Source: Phaeobacter sp. A36a-5a (GTDB lineage Bacteria; Pseudomonadota; Alphaproteobacteria; Rhodobacterales; Rhodobacteraceae). Taken from it: a stretch of DNA of 64,000 nt. A model generated the notes under the pieces. It made no database searches, was not told where the DNA came from, and saw only the letters and a program-made list of their open reading frames with translations. Every line of letters starts with the position of its first letter. Within the stretch, counting starts at the first letter, position 1. The stretch spans positions 1,612,001 to 1,676,000 of the forward strand of contig NZ_JBBLYU010000001.1 of NCBI RefSeq assembly GCF_037911135.1. Reading direction: 5' to 3'. Shown here piece after piece: positions 7,414 through 59,977 of this stretch. A program made the position numbers and the translations under genes.

Positions 7414-9171
7414 TTAGACCTTGCCCTCGGCCAGGCTTAAATGATCCGGCTTCAGCCCATCGTCATAGCGCTGGATCGCCTTTGTTAGAAGCGCCTCGAA
7501 ATCGCGGACATATTGCTCGGTATCATACAGCGGCGTGGTGGCGATATTCGCCTTCAGCTTCTCGCGCAGCGCCTGTCGTTCCTCGGCGTTTCGGGCCAGC
7601 CGCAGCGCCAGCGCGCGATACTCCTCCTCCGTCTCGGCAATCAGCTCAGGACAACCCACGGCGGTGACGACGCTCGCCGCGACCCGCGCCGCAAACTGCT
7701 GCCCCGGTTTGGTCACCACCGGAACACCCGACCACAGCGTCTCACTCGCCGTGGTGTGGGCATTACAGGCAAAGGTATCAAGAAAGATATCCGCCAGCGG
7801 CAGACGCGCAATGTGATGGGGAGTAGGACAACGCCCGGCAAAGACGATCCGATCCGCCGGCACGCCACGAGCCTCCGCCTCCTTGCGGATGTTATCACGG
7901 ATCACACCAGGCACCGCAAGGAACCACAGGACACTGCCATCGACCTCCTTAAGCAGGTCCATCCAGATGTCGAACTCCGCCGGGGAAACCTTGTTATGGT
8001 TGTTGAACGAACAGAAAACCACCGCATCCTCGGGCAGCCCCATATCCGCGCGGGTCGGTCCGGTCTCGGGATGGGGACGACTGTTGTCATTTACCTGATA
8101 GCAATTCGGCATATACAGGATTTTTTCTGAGAAATGGCGCCGCCCCTCTTTTGGTACGGTGACAGCGTCAGCGACGAAATAGTCCATCGCGGGCATTCCC
8201 GTGGTGCCTGGGTAGCCGAGATAGGAGATCTGCACCGGTGCCGCGCGAAAGCCGAATATCGTTGGCCTTGCGTCTTTGGTGTAGCCTTTCAGATCGATCG
8301 CGATGTCCAGACTGTCCCCCCGGGCCAGCTCCGCGACATCCTCGTCTTTCAGGTTATGGATCGGCCGGTAGCAGTCGGCAGCGTCGAGCACGCGCTGACG
8401 CATGACATCGCTTGGTTCGCGGCTGTAGTCATAGATGTAGATTTCGTAGTTATCACGGTCATGCAATTCGAAGTGGCGCGCCATCAGGAACATGGTCGCG
8501 TGATTGAAGAAATCGCAGGAGAAATAGCCAATCCGGATCTTGCGACCAGCCACCGGAGTCCTGTTGAACTTACGGGCCACTTTCCGTTCGGAAATCGTCA
8601 CCTTGTTCTTCGTCTTGCTCACCACGCGTTTCTTCTGCAACGCGGCGTCATCGACATAGAGCAGCGTGGTGAACGGATCGCCGTTGGCCGGGTCGTTATC
8701 GAGGATCCTCAGCTTGTTCTTCTGATCCTTGTAGACGGTCCAGTCGCAAAGGTTCATCTGCGACTGCACAAGCCGGGAGACATTCATCGCATTTTCCGGT
8801 TCGATCTGATAAACCGCCTCAAAGAAGCCAACGGCATCTGTCAGCTTGTCCATCAGAAACAGAATGGTCCCGATCGCGCTGAGCCATTTCGGATTGGTCG
8901 GCTCAAGTTTAAGCGCACCCATAAGATGCTTCAGCGCCAGTTCGTATTTTTTCTCCTGCATGAAGCTGGAAGCAATCTCCGCATGCAGCGTCGCGTTGTC
9001 CGGCTCAAAGGCAAGCGCGCGGGTCGCAAAGTCGCGCGCGCGTGGATAGTCAGCCTCGATAAAGGCACGCCCCGCCTCTGCTTTCAGCGCCAGCGCCGGC
9101 GATGGCGCCGGAGTTTCCAGCCTGCGACGCGCTGATTTCGGAAGATGTTTGGTGCGCAATGGCTTGTTCAT
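7414..9171 (-). CDS. TPR / SPINDLY-type O-linked N-acetylglucosamine transferase family (GT41)
   Basis: A 585-residue cytosolic protein. TPR-like repeats occupy about residues 25-165 (KAEAGRAFIEADYPRARDFATRALAF and following). A GT41 catalytic region spans about 200-565, with RIGYFSCDFFNHATMF, FRAAPVQISYLGYPGTTG, FCSFNNHNKVSP and SETLWSGVPVVTKPG. Family members transfer sugars from UDP-sugars to Ser/Thr of proteins; in bacteria many modify surface or flagellar proteins. The acceptor is not identifiable: no flagellin or adhesin gene is adjacent. The basic N terminus shows no signal peptide. It is monocistronic and divergent from the acyl-CoA dehydrogenase operon. Confidence 0.85.
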   Translation of the reverse strand: MNKPLRTKHLPKSARRRLETPAPSPALALKAEAGRAFIEADYPRARDFATRALAFEPDNATLHAEIASSFMQEKKYELALKHLMGALKLEPTNPKWLSAIGTILFLMDKLTDAVGFFEAVYQIEPENAMNVSRLVQSQMNLCDWTVYKDQKNKLRILDNDPANGDPFTTLLYVDDAALQKKRVVSKTKNKVTISERKVARKFNRTPVAGRKIRIGYFSCDFFNHATMFLMARHFELHDRDNYEIYIYDYSREPSDVMRQRVLDAADCYRPIHNLKDEDVAELARGDSLDIAIDLKGYTKDARPTIFGFRAAPVQISYLGYPGTTGMPAMDYFVADAVTVPKEGRRHFSEKILYMPNCYQVNDNSRPHPETGPTRADMGLPEDAVVFCSFNNHNKVSPAEFDIWMDLLKEVDGSVLWFLAVPGVIRDNIRKEAEARGVPADRIVFAGRCPTPHHIARLPLADIFLDTFACNAHTTASETLWSGVPVVTKPGQQFAARVAASVVTAVGCPELIAETEEEYRALALRLARNAEERQALREKLKANIATTPLYDTEQYVRDFEALLTKAIQRYDDGLKPDHLSLAEGKV

Positions 9172-9478
9172 CGAAAGTCTGCCCTCAGCTGATCATCCAT
9201 GGCGGGCGATGCACCACGGTTTTTGACAAATTTCGGTCAGTTTGGAAGAAAATGCCTAAGAAACGGTTCACTTACGGCCAGATGGCACCCCTTGCGTCAA
9301 TGCCACGGTCAACCATCGGCAAACGCCGCCGGACCGACATTTCTGCACAGCAGCTTTGCACCGCTGCGGCTTGCCCTGCTGCCCTTGGGTCGCTAGAAAA
9401 TAAACAACCGTTCAATTCATGACGACCCCGGCGGGTCAGATCCGGGCCGGGCCGCGTTCACATCAGGGAGGATATGCT
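9172..9478. other. divergent intergenic region, no gene seen
   Basis: These 307 bases separate the minus-strand glycosyltransferase from the plus-strand acyl-CoA dehydrogenase. The AT-rich TTTTTGACAAATTTCGG (9221-9237) and CTAGAAAATAAACAACCG (9394-9411) are the most promoter-like parts. No convincing small ORF was found. Confidence 0.5.
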
Positions 9479-50396: not shown

Positions 50397-51470
50397 TCAG
50401 GCTTGATAACCCGGCAGGCCGAAAATACCGGGGTATCCAAACAGCGCTGCGCTGCCGCCGGTGTGCAGGAAAACGATGTTCTCCATGCCGTCGAAATACC
50501 CCCTGCGGACCTGATCGATCAGGCCGTCGAGCCCCTTGCCCGAATAGACCGGATCAAACAGAAGCCCTTCGAGCCGGGCCAGCTTCAGAAGGGCCTCGCG
50601 CATGCCCTCGGTCGGCAGCCCGTAGCCTGGCCCCACATAATCGCAATTCGCCCGAACCGTGGCCCGGTCGATTTCAACCCCCATTCCAAGGTAATCCATG
50701 GTCTTGCAGGCCAGATCAAAGACCATGCTTTCCTGTTTCTCCTGCGGCGCGCGCACGCCGATCCCAAGCAGGTGAATATCGCTGGCCAGGCCTGCAAGGC
50801 CCGCCACCAGGCCCGCCTGGGTGCCGGAGCTGCCGGTGGCATGGACCAGCGCGCCGATCTTCAGCCCCATCGCCGCGGCCTGCTCCTCCAGTTCGGCGGC
50901 GCAATTCACATAGCCCAATGCGCCAACGCGGTTCGAACCGCCGCCTGGGATGATGTATGTCTTGCGGCCCTGATCCTGCAGCGCTTGGGCCAGGGTCTCC
51001 ATCTCGGTATTCATGTCGGCGCCGCCAGCCCGCTTGGAGATGGTTGCGCCATGCAGCTGGTCCAAAAGCACATTGCCATTGAAATTATAGGCCTCTTCAT
51101 TGGAACCTGTGCGGTCCTCCAGAAGGATATGGCAGTCCAGGCCCAGTTTTGCCGCTGCGGCTGCCGTCTGGCGGGCATGGTTGGATTGGGTGGCGCCCTG
51201 GGTGATTACCGTATCTGCACCCTGTTTCAGTGCCTCGGCCATCAGGAATTCAAGTTTGCGGGTCTTGTTGCCGCCCGATGCAAGACCCGTGCAATCGTCG
51301 CGTTTGACCCAGATGCGCGGCCCGCCCAGTTCTTCGCTCAGTCTGTCCAGTGGCTCCAGCGGAGTTAGCATATGGCCCAGCCGCACGCGCGGGAAGTTCT
51401 CAAGTGCGCGCTTTACCAGAATGAGGTTGCCATCCGCTGCAGTCGTGTCATCTGTCACTGCGCTGTTCAT
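50397..51470 (-). CDS. D-cysteine desulfhydrase / L-cysteate sulfo-lyase family PLP enzyme
   Basis: A 357-residue fold-type II PLP enzyme of the ACC deaminase/D-cysteine desulfhydrase family. The PLP lysine is probably K69 in [30 protein letters not shown] and [12 protein letters not shown] are the cofactor and substrate motifs. From memory it resembles CuyA, the L-cysteate sulfo-lyase of roseobacters (L-cysteate to pyruvate, ammonia and sulfite); D-cysteine desulfhydration is the other main possibility. It lies just upstream of a polar amino acid ABC transporter, on the same strand, and is divergent from a LysR gene. About 20 extra residues precede the usual N terminus. Confidence 0.85.
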
Positions 51471-51530
51471 GCATTTTATCCCTTTTGCGTATCTTTTGTA
51501 AGGCTACCCGCTGCAGGAACTGCTGAATAA

Positions 51531-51543
51531 TGCAAATATTGCA
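51531..51543. promoter_or_regulatory. inverted repeat TGCAA-N3-TTGCA
   Basis: TGCAA (51531-51535) and TTGCA (51539-51543) lie in the divergent region between the PLP enzyme and LysR genes. It resembles the TTGCAA-type sites further right. Confidence 0.35.
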
Positions 51544-51550
51544 GGCTGCT

Positions 51551-51565
51551 CATACAAATTGTATG
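51551..51565. promoter_or_regulatory. perfect 15-base palindrome, candidate LysR operator
   Basis: CATACAA-A-TTGTATG is a perfect palindrome with a T-N11-A-like core, ending 7 bases before the LysR start at 51573. It is probably an autoregulatory/activation site for the divergent enzyme-transporter operon. Confidence 0.6.
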
Positions 51566-51572
51566 GGTGAGT

Positions 51573-52460
51573 ATGGACACACGCCTTTTAGAAGATGCTC
51601 TGATCCTGCTGGAAGAACGCAGCCTGACTGCCGCGGCAGCCCGCAGGAACGTAACACAACCGGCCTTTTCCAGGCGCATACGGGCCTTGGAACATTGGAT
51701 TGGCAAAAACTTGCTGACCCGCGAGGCCAACCGGGTAGAACTGTCCCCCACCTTGCTTCAAAGCGAGCCACAGATCCGGGCTCTGCTGGCACATCTGCGG
51801 CAATTGCATGGGCACCTGAAGAACTCGGAAGGCACTGGTGAGCCGCTGGTGCTGGCGACGCAGCACTCGCTGTCAGTGTCTGTTGTCCCAGAGATTCTCC
51901 GCAAGTTCCGCACCAGCGGTCGGACGCCGCAAATCCGGCTGCGGACGCAAAACCAGGTATCGGCCATGTCAACGTTTTTGCGCCACGAAGCCGATGTTCT
52001 TGTGAGCTATGAGTACCGCGAACTGCCGCAGGTGCCTTTTGACGATACCGTTGACCGTTGTGTCTGGCGGCGGGACACCCTGCTTCCCGTCGTCGGCGGC
52101 GCTCTGCGGCATGATCTCTTGGAAGGCCAGATACTGCCGCCGGATGCTCCCTGCATTGATTATCCTTCCGGTAGTTTCTTCGGGCAGATTGTTTCGCTGC
52201 ATCAAAACAAGGCTGAACGTGCTTGGATAGGTAGGTCGACGGTGGAAAGCGCGTTTTCGGTGGGGATTTCTCAGATGGTTCTCGAAGGAACCGGCGCCGC
52301 TTGGGTGCCTCACTCCCTCATTCAGAACCACATCATTTCCGGCGATGCTGTCATTCTCTCCCCCGAGTACGGCCGTCTGCCACTGGATATCGTTCTTTAT
52401 ACCCATGTGTCCAATCCGCGCGGAGCACTTTTCCGGAAATCAGTTGCTGACCTGGATTGA
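51573..52460 (+). CDS. LysR-family regulator of the PLP enzyme/ABC transporter operon
   Basis: A 295-residue LysR-type protein: an N-terminal winged HTH (about residues 3-62, LTAAAARRNVTQPAFSRRIRALE) and a substrate-binding domain (about 85-285). ATG 51573 is preferred to GTG 51567 because GGTGAG precedes it. It is divergent from the D-cysteine desulfhydrase/CuyA-like gene, with a palindrome in the 102-base gap, so it very likely controls that operon. The subfamily is related to the two LysR genes further downstream. Confidence 0.88.
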   Translation: MDTRLLEDALILLEERSLTAAAARRNVTQPAFSRRIRALEHWIGKNLLTREANRVELSPTLLQSEPQIRALLAHLRQLHGHLKNSEGTGEPLVLATQHSLSVSVVPEILRKFRTSGRTPQIRLRTQNQVSAMSTFLRHEADVLVSYEYRELPQVPFDDTVDRCVWRRDTLLPVVGGALRHDLLEGQILPPDAPCIDYPSGSFFGQIVSLHQNKAERAWIGRSTVESAFSVGISQMVLEGTGAAWVPHSLIQNHIISGDAVILSPEYGRLPLDIVLYTHVSNPRGALFRKSVADLD

Positions 52461-52600: not shown

Positions 52601-52632
52601 CTTTGCAACCACCATGCAAAGTTTGCAATGCC
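52601..52632. promoter_or_regulatory. TTTGCA-type operator before LysR gene 1
   Basis: CTTTGCA (52601-52607) and TGCAAAG (52615-52621) are a perfect inverted repeat. The overlapping TGCAAA-G-TTTGCA (52615-52627), continuing AATGCC-like, closely matches the site before the symporter gene (57568-57592). It lies 51-82 bases before the start at 52683. Confidence 0.55.
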
Positions 52633-53620: not shown

Positions 53621-54514
53621 TCAGAGGTTCTGGGCCAGCATCCAGAACCGCTCCAGCTCTGCCCTTGACCGTTCGATTGAACGGTAAAGCTTAATTTCAA
53701 TTGCCAATTCGTATTCCGGCCTGCTGATCTTGTGCAATGTGCCGTCTTGCAGTTCCCGCTCTGCGGCTCTTTCTGGCAGAAAAGCCACGCCAAGCCCGGC
53801 AAGGCAGGCGGATTTGAGCGCCTCGGCAACGGAGTTTTCGTAAACGGGCTCCACTGCGTCACCCAGGTTACCCCGTTCCAGGCAAACTTGGGAGACCCGA
53901 CCCAGAAAAGTATCGGGCGGATAGGACAGAAACGGAACCGGGTTGTCTGCGGCCAAGCTGTATTTGACACGCCCATCGGCGCCAACACAGCTGACGGCTA
54001 TTATCTGGTCTTTTGCGATCGTTGAGGACGGATACCGGTTTTCATCCGAAATAGTAGGCACCGCCGGGTGAAAATAGCATAGCATGAAATCTGCACTGCC
54101 GCTCAATATCGCTTCAGCGCAGCCTGAGAAGTTTTCCGCGACCAGCCTGGACTTGATGGGGCCTAGATGGCTGGACATACCTGTCAGCCAGGTGGGAAAA
54201 AAAGAAATTGCCAGGGTGTGTAGCGCAACGAAGTCCAGCACTGAGGCTTCCCGGCGGGACAGGCCGCGGATATCGCTTTTGGTTTGCTTCAGCGCGGCAA
54301 CGGTATCGATGGCGGTTTGCTTGAACGCCTTGCCTGCGGCAGTGAGCTCGACCGGATGCACGCTCCTATCGAACAGGGGTGTCCCGGTCCAGTTCTCCAG
54401 ATTCTTGATCCGCCGCGTGAAAGCGGATTGGCTAATGTTGCGCGCATCGGCGGCCCGGGCAAATACCCCTGCAGCGGACAGTGCCAAAAAATCTTCCAGC
54501 CAGTCGATCTCCAT
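53621..54514 (-). CDS. LysR-family regulator, paralogue 2, divergent from aspA
   Basis: A 297-residue LysR regulator with the same N terminus MEIDWLEDFLALSAAG as its convergent neighbour, and intact HTH and substrate-binding domains. It is divergent from the aspartase/racemase operon across 181 bases that contain TTGCA-N5-TGCAA and CAACGC-N4-GCGTTG. It is the most likely direct regulator of that operon and, through the shared site, of the symporter gene. The reading frame continues 63 codons upstream of the chosen start, but family homology begins at MEIDWLEDF. Confidence 0.88.
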   Translation of the reverse strand: MEIDWLEDFLALSAAGVFARAADARNISQSAFTRRIKNLENWTGTPLFDRSVHPVELTAAGKAFKQTAIDTVAALKQTKSDIRGLSRREASVLDFVALHTLAISFFPTWLTGMSSHLGPIKSRLVAENFSGCAEAILSGSADFMLCYFHPAVPTISDENRYPSSTIAKDQIIAVSCVGADGRVKYSLAADNPVPFLSYPPDTFLGRVSQVCLERGNLGDAVEPVYENSVAEALKSACLAGLGVAFLPERAAERELQDGTLHKISRPEYELAIEIKLYRSIERSRAELERFWMLAQNL

Positions 54515-54556: not shown

Positions 54557-54584
54557 TTGCAAAAAATGCAACGCCCTTGCGTTG
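54557..54584. promoter_or_regulatory. LysR operator region between LysR paralogue 2 and aspA
   Basis: TTGCA-N5-TGCAA (54557-54571) overlaps CAACGC-CCTT-GCGTTG (54569-54584). Bases 54557-54580 match bases 57573-57596 before the symporter gene at 21 of 24 positions. It is 43 bases from the LysR start and 112 bases from aspA. Confidence 0.65.
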
Positions 54585-54695
54585 GTTGTCATAGTTGCGG
54601 GCACGGCCCGGCAGTAGGTTTGGCCCAACGATAGCCCCGTTTCTGTGCCCCACGCTTCAGGCGGGTACAGCCGGACCGCAGAAAGGCCCCAGATC

Positions 54696-56093
54696 ATGAG
54701 CAAACATAGAATGGAATCCGACAGCCACGGCCTTGTGGAAGTTCCCCTGGCAGCCGCTTGGGGCAGCCAGACCCAGCGGGCGCTGATAAACTTCCCAATA
54801 ACTGGCGTATCTATCAGCCACTATCCGGAATTGATCGCCGGACTGGCCTCGGTCAAGAAAGCCTGCGCACTAGCAAACCGGGATCTGGGCGCTTTGCCTG
54901 CTGATAAAGCGGCCGCCATTGCCGCCGTCTGCGATGAGATTATTACCGGGGAGCATCACGATCAGTTTGTTGTCGATGTGATGCAGGGCGGCGCCGGGAC
55001 ATCGACCAATATGAACGCCAACGAAGTCATTGCTAACCTCGGGCTTAGAAAGCTTGGCGTGGAATTTGGCGTTTACAGCCGGCTTCACCCGAATGACGAC
55101 GTGAACCGCTCACAATCCACAAACGACGTTTATCCCACAGCAATCCGTCTGGCTGTCCTCTCCCGGATTCCCCCTCTTATCGAGGCTATGCACTGGCTGA
55201 CCAATTCGTTCGGCCAAAAGGCAACCGAGTTTCAGCATATTATGAAGGTCGGCCGTACGCAGCTTCAGGACGCTGTACCCATGCCGCTCGGCGCCGAATT
55301 CCGGGGGTTTGCAACAACGATCAATGAGGACGCCGATCGGTTGTGCGACCTTTCCCGCCTTCTTACCGAAGTGAACCTTGGAGGCACGGCGATAGGCACC
55401 GGCATCAATGCGCCCGAACATTTCGGGGAAACCGCCGTTGCGCACTTGCGGGACATCACGGGCGAACCACTACAACTGGCCCTGGACCTGATAGAAGCCT
55501 CCTCTGATCTCGGCGCCTTTGTGATGTTTTCCAGCACGCTTAAGCGGGTTGGCATCAAACTGTCCAAGATTTGCAACGATTTGCGCCTCATGTCCTCTGG
55601 CCCGCGCGCAGGAATCGGCGAGATCATTCTGCCTGCAGTGCAGGCCGGGTCCTCCATCATGCCCGGGAAAGTAAATCCGGTTATCCCGGAAGTGGTGAAC
55701 CAGGTCTGCTACCAGGCGATCGGAAACGATCTGACCGTGACGATGGCCGCCGAAGCAGGCCAGTTCCAGCTCAACGCAATGGAGCCTGTTATCATCCACA
55801 AGGTGCTGGAAACGATGGGCTCTCTAACCAGTGCAATGAATGTGCTGCGAACCCGTTGCGTGGACGGCATCGCAGCAGATGAAGAAAGATGCCAGATGCT
55901 GCTGAGCAATAGTCTTGTGCATGTGACCGCGCTCGCCCCCCTGATCGGTTATGAGGCCGCAACCAAACTTGCTAAATATGCGCAGGCAAACGGGCTGAGC
56001 CTGCAATCCGCTGCAATGCCGGCCTTACCGGAAGAATTGGCCGAGACGGCCCTGAGACATCTTCAGGCTAAGATGCGGGAGGAAGCCCAATGA
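54696..56093 (+). CDS. aspA: aspartate ammonia-lyase (aspartase)
   Basis: A cytosolic lyase of the aspartase/fumarase superfamily that would convert L-aspartate to fumarate and ammonia. The 465 residues match the family. Motifs are GGAGTSTNMNANEVIAN, HPNDDVNRSQSTNDVYPTA, LQDAVPMPLGAEF and the catalytic-loop signature GSSIMPGKVNPVIPE. ATG 54696 is chosen because homology starts shortly after it; an upstream start adds only 17 residues. The stop overlaps the racemase start (ATGA), so the two are translated together. A fumarase or another amino acid lyase is less likely. Confidence 0.9.
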   Translation: MSKHRMESDSHGLVEVPLAAAWGSQTQRALINFPITGVSISHYPELIAGLASVKKACALANRDLGALPADKAAAIAAVCDEIITGEHHDQFVVDVMQGGAGTSTNMNANEVIANLGLRKLGVEFGVYSRLHPNDDVNRSQSTNDVYPTAIRLAVLSRIPPLIEAMHWLTNSFGQKATEFQHIMKVGRTQLQDAVPMPLGAEFRGFATTINEDADRLCDLSRLLTEVNLGGTAIGTGINAPEHFGETAVAHLRDITGEPLQLALDLIEASSDLGAFVMFSSTLKRVGIKLSKICNDLRLMSSGPRAGIGEIILPAVQAGSSIMPGKVNPVIPEVVNQVCYQAIGNDLTVTMAAEAGQFQLNAMEPVIIHKVLETMGSLTSAMNVLRTRCVDGIAADEERCQMLLSNSLVHVTALAPLIGYEAATKLAKYAQANGLSLQSAAMPALPEELAETALRHLQAKMREEAQ

Positions 56094-57523
56094 ACAGTAA
56101 CAAGTCTCTGCGTCTGGGAATTGTCGGCGGCTTAGGCGCCCTTGCCGGGGCCGACTTGCTGAACAGAATTGTTCAGAACACTCCGGTCAGGTCGGAGGAG
56201 GATCACAGGGAGCTGGTTTTCCATCAAAAGCCATTGCGCGAACCAGTCTCCCCCAAGGAACCTGACTACAAACCCACACACCGTAAACTTTATGTATTTG
56301 ATACGCTGTCCCGCATGGAACGGGAAGGATGTGATGCGGCGCTTCTGCCATGTTTTGTCACGCATAGTTTCCTGCAGGAACTGGGGGATGAACTGGAGCT
56401 GAAACTTGTCAGCATGACGGAGGCGATTTCAGCTGCGGTTGCAAGGCTGGATCCGCAGCCAGAGAAAATTGGTGTCATCGCGACACCTTTTGTCAGGGAA
56501 CACGGGCTGTTCGAGCACCTGTTCGGGGTGGATGCACAGGTTGTCTATCCCGCTGCGGAGCTGGAATGCGTTGTTCTGGAAGCGGTCTATGGCAACAACG
56601 GTTTCAAAGCCGGAAACCGTAGCGAAGAAGTGCTGAAACCTATCAACGCAGCCCTTGCCAGCCTGTCGGAGCAGGGGGCGACGGTTTTTGTGCCCGGGCT
56701 TTCTGAGTTGCCGCTGCTGCTCGATCAGCTTGACCTGCCAGACGGGATGGCAGCCATAGACACGGCGGCGATTTATGCAGAGCACGCGCTACAGGAGACG
56801 CAAACAGACCACCGCCGCCGATTCAAAGTCGGGGTTGTTGGCGGTGTCGGGCCTGCCGCAACCGTGGATTTCCTCTCCAAACTTGTTAGGGGTACTGAGG
56901 CCGCACGTGATCAGGATCACATCAAGATATTGGTCGAACAAAATCCGCAAATCCCTGACAGGACTGAAAACCTGGTGGGAACAGGAGCCGATCCGACAGT
57001 AGCCCTCTATTCCACTTGCAAGAAATTGGAACGCGGTGGGGCTGACATTCTGGTCATTCCCTGCAACACCGCCCACGCCTATGTCGATCGTATCCAGCGC
57101 CATCTCGGCATTCCGATCATTAGTATTCTGGCAGCGGCCACTGACCACATCAGGGAAAGCTCTCCCGGGACGCGCACGGTCGGGGTTCTCGGCACCGATG
57201 GAACAATCCGAAGCGGACTGTATCAGCAGGCGCTTGAGGAGGCTGGTCTTTGCCACATCGTCCCCGATGAGCAGCATCAAAACTTGGTCATGGAGTGCAT
57301 ATACGGCCCGGCCGGCGTCAAGGCTGGGTACACCGAAGGTCTCTGCAAGGAGCTGATTACCCGGGCTTTTTCCCATTTGGTTGGGCGCGGCGCCGAGGCT
57401 GTCATTCTCGGCTGCACGGAACTCCCTATCCTTGTGACGGCAGGCGCCGGCGAACTGGGGGCGCTGGCCGTTGATCCAACCGATGTGCTGGCCCGTAAAT
57501 GCGTGCAACTGGCAAAGGCCTAA
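56090..57523 (+). CDS. fused double Asp/Glu racemase-family protein
   Basis: The 477 residues are made of two racemase-family domains (about 1-236 and 240-477), each with the family's glycine-rich start (LGIVGGLGALAG and VGVVGGVGPAAT). The C-terminal domain keeps both catalytic cysteines, Cys325 in PCNTAH and Cys442 in LGCTELP. The N-terminal domain keeps Cys88 in a changed context (PCFVTH) but has Leu204 where the second Cys should be (PGLSELP), so it cannot use the normal two-base mechanism. Single-domain racemases of this family have about 230-250 residues. The partner aspartase overlaps by four bases and suggests D/L-aspartate, or an analogue such as cysteate, as substrate. Confidence 0.88.
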   Translation: MNSNKSLRLGIVGGLGALAGADLLNRIVQNTPVRSEEDHRELVFHQKPLREPVSPKEPDYKPTHRKLYVFDTLSRMEREGCDAALLPCFVTHSFLQELGDELELKLVSMTEAISAAVARLDPQPEKIGVIATPFVREHGLFEHLFGVDAQVVYPAAELECVVLEAVYGNNGFKAGNRSEEVLKPINAALASLSEQGATVFVPGLSELPLLLDQLDLPDGMAAIDTAAIYAEHALQETQTDHRRRFKVGVVGGVGPAATVDFLSKLVRGTEAARDQDHIKILVEQNPQIPDRTENLVGTGADPTVALYSTCKKLERGGADILVIPCNTAHAYVDRIQRHLGIPIISILAAATDHIRESSPGTRTVGVLGTDGTIRSGLYQQALEEAGLCHIVPDEQHQNLVMECIYGPAGVKAGYTEGLCKELITRAFSHLVGRGAEAVILGCTELPILVTAGAGELGALAVDPTDVLARKCVQLAKA

Positions 57524-57567
57524 GGTCCTGCCCATAGCTGAAAGCGGTTTCTCCTTGGGAGCTGAAA

Positions 57568-57592
57568 GGGCGTTGCAAAGTTTGCAACGCCC
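57568..57592. promoter_or_regulatory. perfect 25-base palindrome before the symporter gene
   Basis: The arms GGGCGTTGCAAA (57568-57579) and their exact complement (57581-57592) flank a single G. No T run follows, so it is more likely a regulator-binding site than a terminator. It lies 98 bases before the symporter start and shares its core with the aspA and LysR paralogue 1 leader sites. Confidence 0.75.
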
Positions 57593-57690
57593 TTGCCATG
57601 TTTGCGCGACGCTGACTGTCATCGAACTGGTACCATGCTGCGACTGTTGGCAGCCCGATCCGGTTGGCTGCCTTGGAAAGGGAGGTCCTC

Positions 57691-58989
57691 ATGGCGAATA
57701 CCAGTCAAAAAATAGGGTTTTTGGCACCTTGGAGAAACATGCTTCTGTGGAAGCAAATCGTAATCGCACTTGTCCTTGGAGTGATTACAGGCGTTCTGCT
57801 GAACGCGACCGGCAACCAGGCAATTGCCGGCATGATCAAGAACATCGGAACCTTGTTCCTGTCGCTCATTAAAATGCTGATTGTCCCGCTGATCTTCGTG
57901 TCGCTCGTATGCGGCATGACATCCGTCAGCGACATGGCGCGCATGGGTCGTATTGGCCTGAAGGCGATTGTGTTCTATCTCGGCACGACTGCATTTGCGA
58001 TCACGATCGGCCTGGCATTGGGGTTACTGATGCAACCCGGCGCGGGCATTGACCTGAGTGCCGCCGCCGCCATGGAACCCAAAACCTCACCGCCCTTCAT
58101 TCAGCAGCTCATCGGGATCGTCCCGAAGAATCCGGTTGCCGCCGCAGCAGACGGAAACGTTCTTCAGATCATCTTTTTCGCAATCATGTTCGGCCTGGCC
58201 ATCAACCTGGTTGGCGACGCAGGCAAGCCGGTGCGGGAGTTCTTTGAAGCGCTGAATTCAGTTGTGCTCAAGCTGACAGAGATAGTGATCAGTTTCGCCC
58301 CCTACGGCGTGTTTGCACTGATGGCTTGGGTCGCCGGAACCTACGGGCTTGATCTTCTGCTTCCGTTGGGGACGGTGATTGCCGCACTCTATATCGGCTG
58401 CATCCTGCATGCGCTGTTTGTCTATGGCGGGCTCGTTTCGGTCTTCGCCCGCCTAAGTCCGGTTCGCTTCTTCCAAGGCATCATTGAACCGCAGATCGTG
58501 GCTTTCACCAGCACGTCCTCCTCAGGCACTCTGCCCGTCACAATGACCGCCGTACAGCAGAACCTTGGCGTTAACCGGTCGGTTGCAAGCTTTACCCTGC
58601 CGCTCGGCGCAACTATCAACATGGACGGAACCGCCATGTACCAGGGCGTTGCCGCTCTCTTTGTTGCACAGGCCTTTGGTATAGAACTGGGCATGTCGGA
58701 ATATGTCACAATCATTCTGACGTCGACGCTGGCCTCCATCGGTACCGCCGGTGTTCCTGGGGCCGGGCTGGTCATGCTGTCGCTGGTTCTGACCTCTGTC
58801 GGCCTGCCTTTGGAAGGTGTTGCCATCATTGCAGGCATCGATCGTATTCTCGACATGGCACGCACGTCGCTCAATGTCACCGGAGACGCAGCCTGCACCG
58901 TGCTCATTGCGAAGTCCGAAGATCAAATTGACCTTGAGGCGTACGACACTCCCCATGTGCTGAAAACTCCTGACGTTTCGCGGGCGTAA
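57691..58989 (+). CDS. dicarboxylate/amino acid:cation symporter (DctA/GltP type)
   Basis: A 432-residue inner-membrane protein of the DAACS family, which takes up glutamate, aspartate or C4-dicarboxylates with protons or sodium. It has about eight hydrophobic helices. The re-entrant loop TSTSSSGTLPVTM, the NMDGTAMYQGVAALFVAQ motif and STLASIGTAGVPGAG are all present. GGGAGG precedes ATG 57691. It follows the racemase gene in the same direction but after 167 bases that contain a 25-base palindrome, so it probably has its own regulated promoter. Acidic amino acid uptake fits the neighbours. Confidence 0.92.
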   Translation: MANTSQKIGFLAPWRNMLLWKQIVIALVLGVITGVLLNATGNQAIAGMIKNIGTLFLSLIKMLIVPLIFVSLVCGMTSVSDMARMGRIGLKAIVFYLGTTAFAITIGLALGLLMQPGAGIDLSAAAAMEPKTSPPFIQQLIGIVPKNPVAAAADGNVLQIIFFAIMFGLAINLVGDAGKPVREFFEALNSVVLKLTEIVISFAPYGVFALMAWVAGTYGLDLLLPLGTVIAALYIGCILHALFVYGGLVSVFARLSPVRFFQGIIEPQIVAFTSTSSSGTLPVTMTAVQQNLGVNRSVASFTLPLGATINMDGTAMYQGVAALFVAQAFGIELGMSEYVTIILTSTLASIGTAGVPGAGLVMLSLVLTSVGLPLEGVAIIAGIDRILDMARTSLNVTGDAACTVLIAKSEDQIDLEAYDTPHVLKTPDVSRA

Positions 58990-59344: not shown

Positions 59345-59977
59345 TCAAATGTCGATTTGCTCGGCAATGCTCAGCGCATCTTCAAGTTCGACGCCAAGGT
59401 ATCTGACAGTGCCGTCCACCTTTGTGTGTCCTAGCAGGAGTTGAACCGCCCGGAGATTCCCGGTTTTGCGGTAGATTTCCGCTGCTTTGGTCCGGCGCAG
59501 CGAATGGGTGCCGTATCCGCTGGGCTCCAGCCCAATCGCGGCCACCCAATCCCTCACAAGCCGGCCATATTGGCGTGTCGAGATATGCGGGCGGTCATGA
59601 AACCTGCTGGGAAACATAAACCGGCAACCGAGCATCTCTGGCGACTTGATCCATGCGGCAATGGTATTCCGCGTGTTTTCAGAGAGTTCAAACTGAACGG
59701 GCCGCTTGGTTTTGCTCTGGACCACAGACACCCGTTCGCGAACGCGATCATCCCTCACCAGGTCGGCGACAGCCAGTTTCACCAGATCGCATCCGCGAAG
59801 CTTGCTATCAATTGCCACGTTGAACAGCGCAAGATCGCGCAGGTTGCCCGCCAGTTCGAGCCGCGCGCGGATCGCCTAGACCTGTTTCGGCAATAGCGGC
59901 CGTTTCTGGCCGATGATCCGGCCCTTGTTCCAGGCTCTTCGTTTCGGGGTGACAGCGGGAAGTTGGACTCTTGGCAT
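59345..59977 (-). pseudogene. tyrosine recombinase/integrase interrupted by an amber codon
   Basis: Read from ATG 59977, the frame encodes a 210-codon small tyrosine recombinase starting MPRVQLPAVTPKRRAWNKGR. Codon 34 is TAG (59878-59876); I recall related proteins having Trp here (KHVWAIR-like context), one base away from TAG. After it the frame continues intact: catalytic Arg in SKLRGCD, HSLRRTKAAE, LLGHTKVDG and the nucleophile Tyr in VRYLGVE. Downstream translation could restart at GTG 59818, giving a 157-residue C-terminal fragment. It may be a remnant of an integration event. Readthrough is possible but not expected. Confidence 0.8.

Follow-up and report, generated by a model that had tools for sequence, protein, structure and literature searches.

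A TTGCAA-N3-TTGCAA palindrome as the predicted operator of two DarR-like LysR regulators in a Phaeobacter aspartate/cysteate gene block

In the 64,000-nucleotide stretch of Phaeobacter sp. A36a-5a DNA analysed here (the window), a short inverted repeat recurs before the genes for two paralogous LysR-type regulators, before aspA and before a symporter gene. The locus raises the question of whether these promoters belong to one regulon and, if so, which regulator reads the repeat. An earlier note on this DNA had proposed a common operator at three promoters, controlling two LysR regulators, an aspartase with a fused racemase and an acidic amino acid symporter. The genes of the block are as follows:

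50397-51470, minus strand: gene for a CuyA-type D-cysteate sulfo-lyase (NCBIfam sulfolyase_CuyA, 521.8 bits, passing the cut-off of 450)
51573-52460, plus strand: LysR0, a third LysR-type regulator (HTH_1 and LysR_substrate; start taken from the annotation of the plasmid copy)
52683-53591, plus strand: LysR1, a DarR-like LysR-type regulator (best PDB sequence match 7dwn, Vibrio fischeri DarR, 1.1e-39)
53621-54514, minus strand: LysR2, paralogue of LysR1 (best PDB sequence match VV2_1132, 1.5e-41; DarR second, 1.7e-34)
54696-56093, plus strand: aspA, aspartate ammonia-lyase (NCBIfam subfamily model, 652.8 bits, cut-off 510)
56090-57523, plus strand: tandem Asp/Glu-type racemase, its C-terminal half like the cysteate racemase CuyB
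57691-58989, plus strand: SDF-family acidic amino acid/dicarboxylate symporter (Pfam SDF, 446 bits)

The supposed fusion of aspartase and racemase is in fact two separate genes with a 4-bp overlap (ATGA) at 56090-56093. AspA stays under the aspA equivalog cut-off (583 vs 681), and the symporter scores under the cut-offs of both GltP and DctA. The C-terminal half of the racemase reaches 352.9 bits with the NCBIfam model of CuyB, above the cut-off of 190. We confirmed 289 racemase relatives in named genomes and kept the best 80, all of which carry both cysteines in the C-terminal half. The second cysteine of the N-terminal half is missing from all of these best 80 of 289 (glycine in 78, alanine in 2), and this half may therefore be non-catalytic or regulatory. 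A gene for a Glu/Asp-type binding protein lies, together with cuyA, just upstream in the block. As judged from the sequence, this gene content is compatible with the use of D/L-aspartate and cysteate. In L019, a metagenome-assembled genome, the racemase (8001-9428) is only 91% identical to that of the window, against 97-100% for the remaining proteins of the cluster, a divergence that perhaps reflects a local exchange.

The operator unit is a 15-bp palindrome, TTGCAA-N3-TTGCAA, that is, TTGC-N7-GCAA with the T-N11-A core of LysR-type sites. Its copies and the related elements nearby are:

51530-51544, no strand: site D, a weak fourth match (ATGCAA-ATA-TTGCAG) between cuyA and LysR0, one of the six genome-wide core matches
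51551-51565, no strand: perfect palindrome CATACAAATTGTATG, directly upstream of LysR0, 21 bp centre to centre from site D
52603-52608, no strand: extra TTGCAA half-site, 11 bp from site A
52614-52628, no strand: site A, before LysR1 (ATGCAA-AGT-TTGCAA)
54557-54571, no strand: site B, in the divergent region between LysR2 and aspA (TTGCAA-AAA-ATGCAA)
57573-57587, no strand: site C, before the symporter gene (TTGCAA-AGT-TTGCAA), inside a 29-bp perfect palindrome at 57566-57594

The earlier description of the repeats largely holds: 54557-54580 matches 57573-57596 at 21 of 24 positions, the only mismatches being the AAA/GTT spacer, and a further copy is present at 52615-52632. The repeats of the proposed 24-base motif are real, but the unit is the symmetric 15-bp palindrome, and the CGCCC flank is without deep conservation; likewise, the palindrome before the symporter gene is perfect as claimed but longer than the 25 bp assigned to it. 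The extra half-site next to site A recurs at the same offset in all four rows compared (window, Leisingera, Cognatishimia and Ruegeria). The core of site D is kept in L019, and this site is perhaps LysR0's own, while CATACAAATTGTATG is probably part of the predicted operator of LysR0.

Equal frequency of the motif throughout the genome, named at the outset as an observation that would speak against a regulon, is not what the genome-wide count shows: in 4.05 Mb, TTGCAAANNNTGCAA occurs exactly at two places only, sites B and C. One mismatch adds site A and 14 other places, and the genome counts by strand are 7 and 12, compared with 2 and 2 for the reversed control. The symmetric core TGCAANNNTTGCA (TGCAA-N3-TTGCA) is found at six places in the genome (reversed control 1), of which the three in the block (51531, 52615 and 57574) are intergenic and the other three lie inside unrelated ORFs. 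From the density elsewhere, about 0.0045 core sites are expected in 6.1 kb, and the three found correspond to a Poisson probability of about 1e-8, calculated post hoc. Sites matching at 11 or more of 12 positions are A, B and C only in the window, where 0.2 are expected. A chance origin of the repeats would accord with the mild enrichment seen once two mismatches are allowed (10 matches in the window vs 5.0 expected; 5 of 100 shuffles reach 10), but the exact genome-wide counts and the conservation across genera make it scarcely credible. Among the seven genomes of the genus, exact TTGCAANNNTTGCAA is present in two, the other copy lying within overlapping ORFs near a contig end.

Conservation was assessed by scanning 16 sequences for sites by match score; the LysR upstream regions scored are those found within the best 80 racemase loci, and the gene-by-gene comparison of loci covered 20 of these 80. 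Sites with at least 11 of 12 matches stand at all three promoters in L019 and in four Leisingera loci. Cognatishimia has kept A and C, with B at 10/12, and Ruegeria B and C, with A at 10/12 and B facing the racemase gene. The Paracoccus locus has site C only, its LysR2 site (B) being degraded, and a search of this locus for LysR1 found none. The motif is thus present at orthologous promoters of Leisingera, Cognatishimia and Ruegeria, and weaker in Paracoccus; its absence from orthologous loci had been named in the earlier note as an observation against the regulon. In the core columns the majority base has a mean share of 0.96 for A, 0.94 for B and 0.98 for C (8, 9 and 9 sequences), compared with 0.64, 0.68 and 0.75 in the remaining columns; these counts are not independent because the sequences are related. 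On plasmid pBMJM1_1 of Leisingera thetidis the symporter gene is inverted and still has an 11/12 site upstream, its centre lying 127 bp away from the annotated start. A LysR relative with its site faces the gene of an ABC binding protein in L027 (Sulfitobacter), L030 and L034; L034 has an additional 11/12 site far from the regulator gene. Taken together, the inverted symporter gene and the relatives facing ABC genes indicate that the site follows the regulator and the promoters.

Site C, between the racemase and symporter genes, could instead act mainly as an RNA hairpin (a terminator, attenuator or processing site). The RNA does fold better than shuffled sequences in the window (-24.3 kcal/mol, z -3.2), in Leisingera L020 (z -5.1) and in Paracoccus (z -2.6), but there is no such excess in Cognatishimia (z -0.3), in Ruegeria (z -0.2) or at site B (z -0.1). 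Moreover, no T-run follows the stem in the window, and the L. thetidis site precedes an inverted symporter gene, outside any racemase-symporter transcript. We regard a mainly RNA-level role as improbable. A hairpin as the shared function of these sites was rejected, the folding excess being present in three of the five C sites (window, L020 and L025) and absent in L024 and L026; it may be a second, local role of site C in some species.

Which regulator would read the palindrome? LysR0, LysR1 and LysR2 all score above the Pfam gathering thresholds for HTH_1 and LysR_substrate, and LysR1 and LysR2 share 54% identity. Each of these two has a T-N11-A palindromic site near its own promoter (site A for LysR1, site B for LysR2); the LysR2 gene is divergent from aspA, while the LysR1 gene has no close divergent target. 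In sequence and fold both are close to V. fischeri DarR, HypT and VV2_1132. DarR comes first by structure and profile, narrowly, with HypT less than 1 Z unit behind and VV2_1132 leading for the LysR2 sequence alone; for the LysR2 structure model, the nearest is DarR. A functional place with the hypochlorite regulator HypT rather than with DarR could draw on this short distance, and on LysR0, LysR1 and LysR2 all having HypT as their top-scoring NCBIfam model. Membership of the HypT equivalog was nevertheless rejected, since the three score 128.6, 110.8 and 96.6 bits, far under the cut-off of 301. The neighbouring genes, moreover, concern acidic amino acids: racemase, aspartase and symporter link the LysR pair to D/L-aspartate. 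Kinship in function with HypT is accordingly very unlikely. Of the genome's six best matches to the HypT model, five fall within about 14.5 kb (G000:C1:1663570-1677993, L120), a local cluster of related LysR genes extending from window position 51570 to past its right end.

The alternative that another regulator family uses the operator and LysR1 and LysR2 are bystanders can be weighed against the operators of their relatives. For this we compared 95 LysR upstream regions, with L113 (a plasmid copy of the window) and L108 (a copy of L029) left out and near-identical rows remaining. ATGC-N7-GCAT, reportedly the published consensus of the DarR group, occurs in 19 regions and TTGC-N7-GCAA in 16, compared with 0.35 and 0.2 in shuffles. 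The LysR sites of the window are without the DarR-group form and have TTGC-N7-GCAA arms instead. With the recognition helix QPAFSRRI, ATGC-N7-GCAT is found in 14 of 19 (six beta and eight gamma rows) and the TTGC form in none. With QSAFTRRI, all 18 regions have TTGC arms (14 the full TTGC-N7-GCAA, the other four one TTGC and one ATGC arm) and none has ATGC-N7-GCAT. Neither operator type accompanies QSGFSRRI (0/34), and neither occurs in full at L026 LysR1 (QPAFTRRI) or L025 (PAAFTRRI). A TGCAA-centred score found no site in the gamma relatives (best p 0.105); ATGC-N7-GCAT, a pattern picked after that scan, lies within 250 bp in 8 of 11 of them. Operator type thus tracks the LysR recognition helix, and the site has the T-N11-A form and is centred 43-67 bp before the LysR genes in differing contexts, all of which makes a bystander role for the LysR pair highly improbable.

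We further constructed a tree of these proteins, with four of the 34 QSGFSRRI rows taken, the L114 row misparsed (label NA), and HypT and VV2_1132 left out. In this tree 22 alphaproteobacterial rows form a clade (99/99) whose sister group consists of six betaproteobacterial rows carrying ATGC sites (fork 97/99), and the operator change was therefore probably one event. LysR1 (8 rows) and LysR2 (9 rows) each have a subclade of their own, with window, Leisingera, Cognatishimia and Ruegeria members in both. L029, with Pro and Thr (QPAFTRRI), has the ATGC form in its normal position with a TTGC form 20 bp farther on, and L112, with Ser and Ser (QSAFSRRI), has an ATGC site; that both retain ATGC sites suggests that both helix changes are needed. 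Residues 30 and 33 presumably read bases, an assumption carried over from work on BenM. It is conceivable, though we offer it tentatively, that an ancestral ATGC-N7-GCAT operator became TTGC-N7-GCAA through the helix substitutions Pro30 to Ser and Ser33 to Thr, close to the root of the alphaproteobacterial clade, and that LysR1 and LysR2 kept this code, insulating a transferable aspartate/cysteate regulon from the cell's other DarR-type regulators.

In order to describe the promoters, 17 B and C sites were aligned on the palindrome, read towards the target gene, and 40 offsets were scored for likeness to TTGACA. Two offsets stand out over the 17 sites, +14 (3.71 of 6) and +5 (3.24), with none of the others scoring above 2.18. 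TTG stands at +14 in 12 of 17 sites, and TTGC at +5 in 11 of 17 (B 9/10, C 2/7). The corresponding elements in the window are:

54577-54582, plus strand: third half-site TTGCGT, near site B, with TTGC at that offset in nine of ten B sites
54586-54591, plus strand: TTGTCA, the proposed -35 of aspA, at +14 of site B
57602-57607, plus strand: TTGCGC, proposed as the -35 or as an additional half-site for the symporter gene, and placed at +14 like TTGTCA of site B

A search of each promoter found no strong or consistent sigma-70 -10. If TTGTCA is the -35, the palindrome centre lies near -57 to -60, as expected for the recognition site of LysR-type regulators. Before the LysR1 and LysR2 relatives, the distance of 43-67 bp from palindrome centre to start codon would suit autorepression.

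The proposal of three promoters with a common operator is hence supported by the rarity of the site, its conservation at orthologous promoters and the association of operator and helix. With good confidence, we predict from sequence that TTGCAA-N3-TTGCAA is the operator of the DarR-like LysR1/LysR2 pair, which would activate aspA-racemase and the symporter gene with an acidic amino acid bound and repress its own genes. At these two targets LysR1 or LysR2 would occupy the palindrome, at about -57 to -60, and reach towards the third half-site 11 bp nearer the gene; it would assist polymerase at a -35 hexamer of the TTG type that begins 14 bp past the palindrome. Of the acidic amino acids, D-aspartate is the likeliest effector, with L-aspartate or cysteate as further candidates, and the same site close to the promoter of both LysR genes would serve autorepression. 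Acidic amino acids would then be imported, their D and L forms interconverted, and L-aspartate deaminated to fumarate; a route from cysteate through D-cysteate to CuyA is also possible.

The earlier note knew of no described regulon with this motif. A literature search found no TTGCAA LysR palindrome either, which is weak evidence, the key DarR/AalR papers being outside its scope; the regulators themselves resemble the described D-aspartate-responsive DarR group, so the regulon is not without precedent. V. fischeri DarR-racD, which Jones et al. reportedly described in 2018, is said to pair a D-aspartate-responsive LysR regulator with an aspartate racemase and a palindromic operator. The Phaeobacter system shares with it a LysR of the same branch, for which DarR is the first structural match, the link to an aspartate-type racemase and the palindromic operator, but identity is 31%, the Phaeobacter regulators are a paralogous pair, their predicted regulon takes in aspA and a symporter, and the racemase is a CuyB-like tandem protein. 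In Acinetobacter baylyi, two LysR regulators, DarR and AalR, reportedly act through one operator at aspA, a racemase and aspartate transporters (Bedore et al. are said to have described this in 2022). That arrangement is much like the present one, with ATGC-N7-GCAT there and TTGC-N7-GCAA in Phaeobacter, the likeness being one of reported gene and operator arrangement. A further parallel is cysteate degradation by CuyA and CuyB: CuyA and a CuyB-type racemase score above their NCBIfam cut-offs in one cluster, but the Phaeobacter racemase consists of two fused tandem halves and shares an operon with aspA. The evidence best supports an aspartate/cysteate regulon of the DarR kind that has a derived operator, whose outermost base pair would have changed.

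The block lies on a 2.27-Mb contig in this genome, and 94% of window positions 46000-62000 matches five plasmids (four of P. inhibens, one of P. piscinae) at 98.7-98.9% identity, among them pP92_a, which is typed conjugative. Just past the symporter gene is a tyrosine-recombinase-like ORF (59345-59818); similar integrase DNA is present on other roseobacter plasmids. On the Phaeobacter plasmid copy L113 (1-399), two more LysR genes and a TRAP transporter neighbour a second gene, annotated as D-cysteine desulfhydrase. Counting the window's own genome, LysR2 was found in one of seven genomes of the genus (1e-50), in at least 2 of 394 in the family (1e-60) and in at least 6 of 385 in the class (1e-65), and the racemase in at least 1 of 149 in the family (1e-40); the family and class scans scored up to 6 candidates per genome for LysR2, and the racemase scan up to 10. 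To our knowledge, few D-amino-acid-sensing regulators have been described. As a predicted regulon, the locus can be tested by experiment; it may connect the use of D/L-aspartate with that of cysteate in roseobacters, and plasmids carry near-identical copies of it. It would also be useful for reading and engineering LysR specificity, as a natural example of a single operator base pair and two residues of the helix that seem to have changed in concert.
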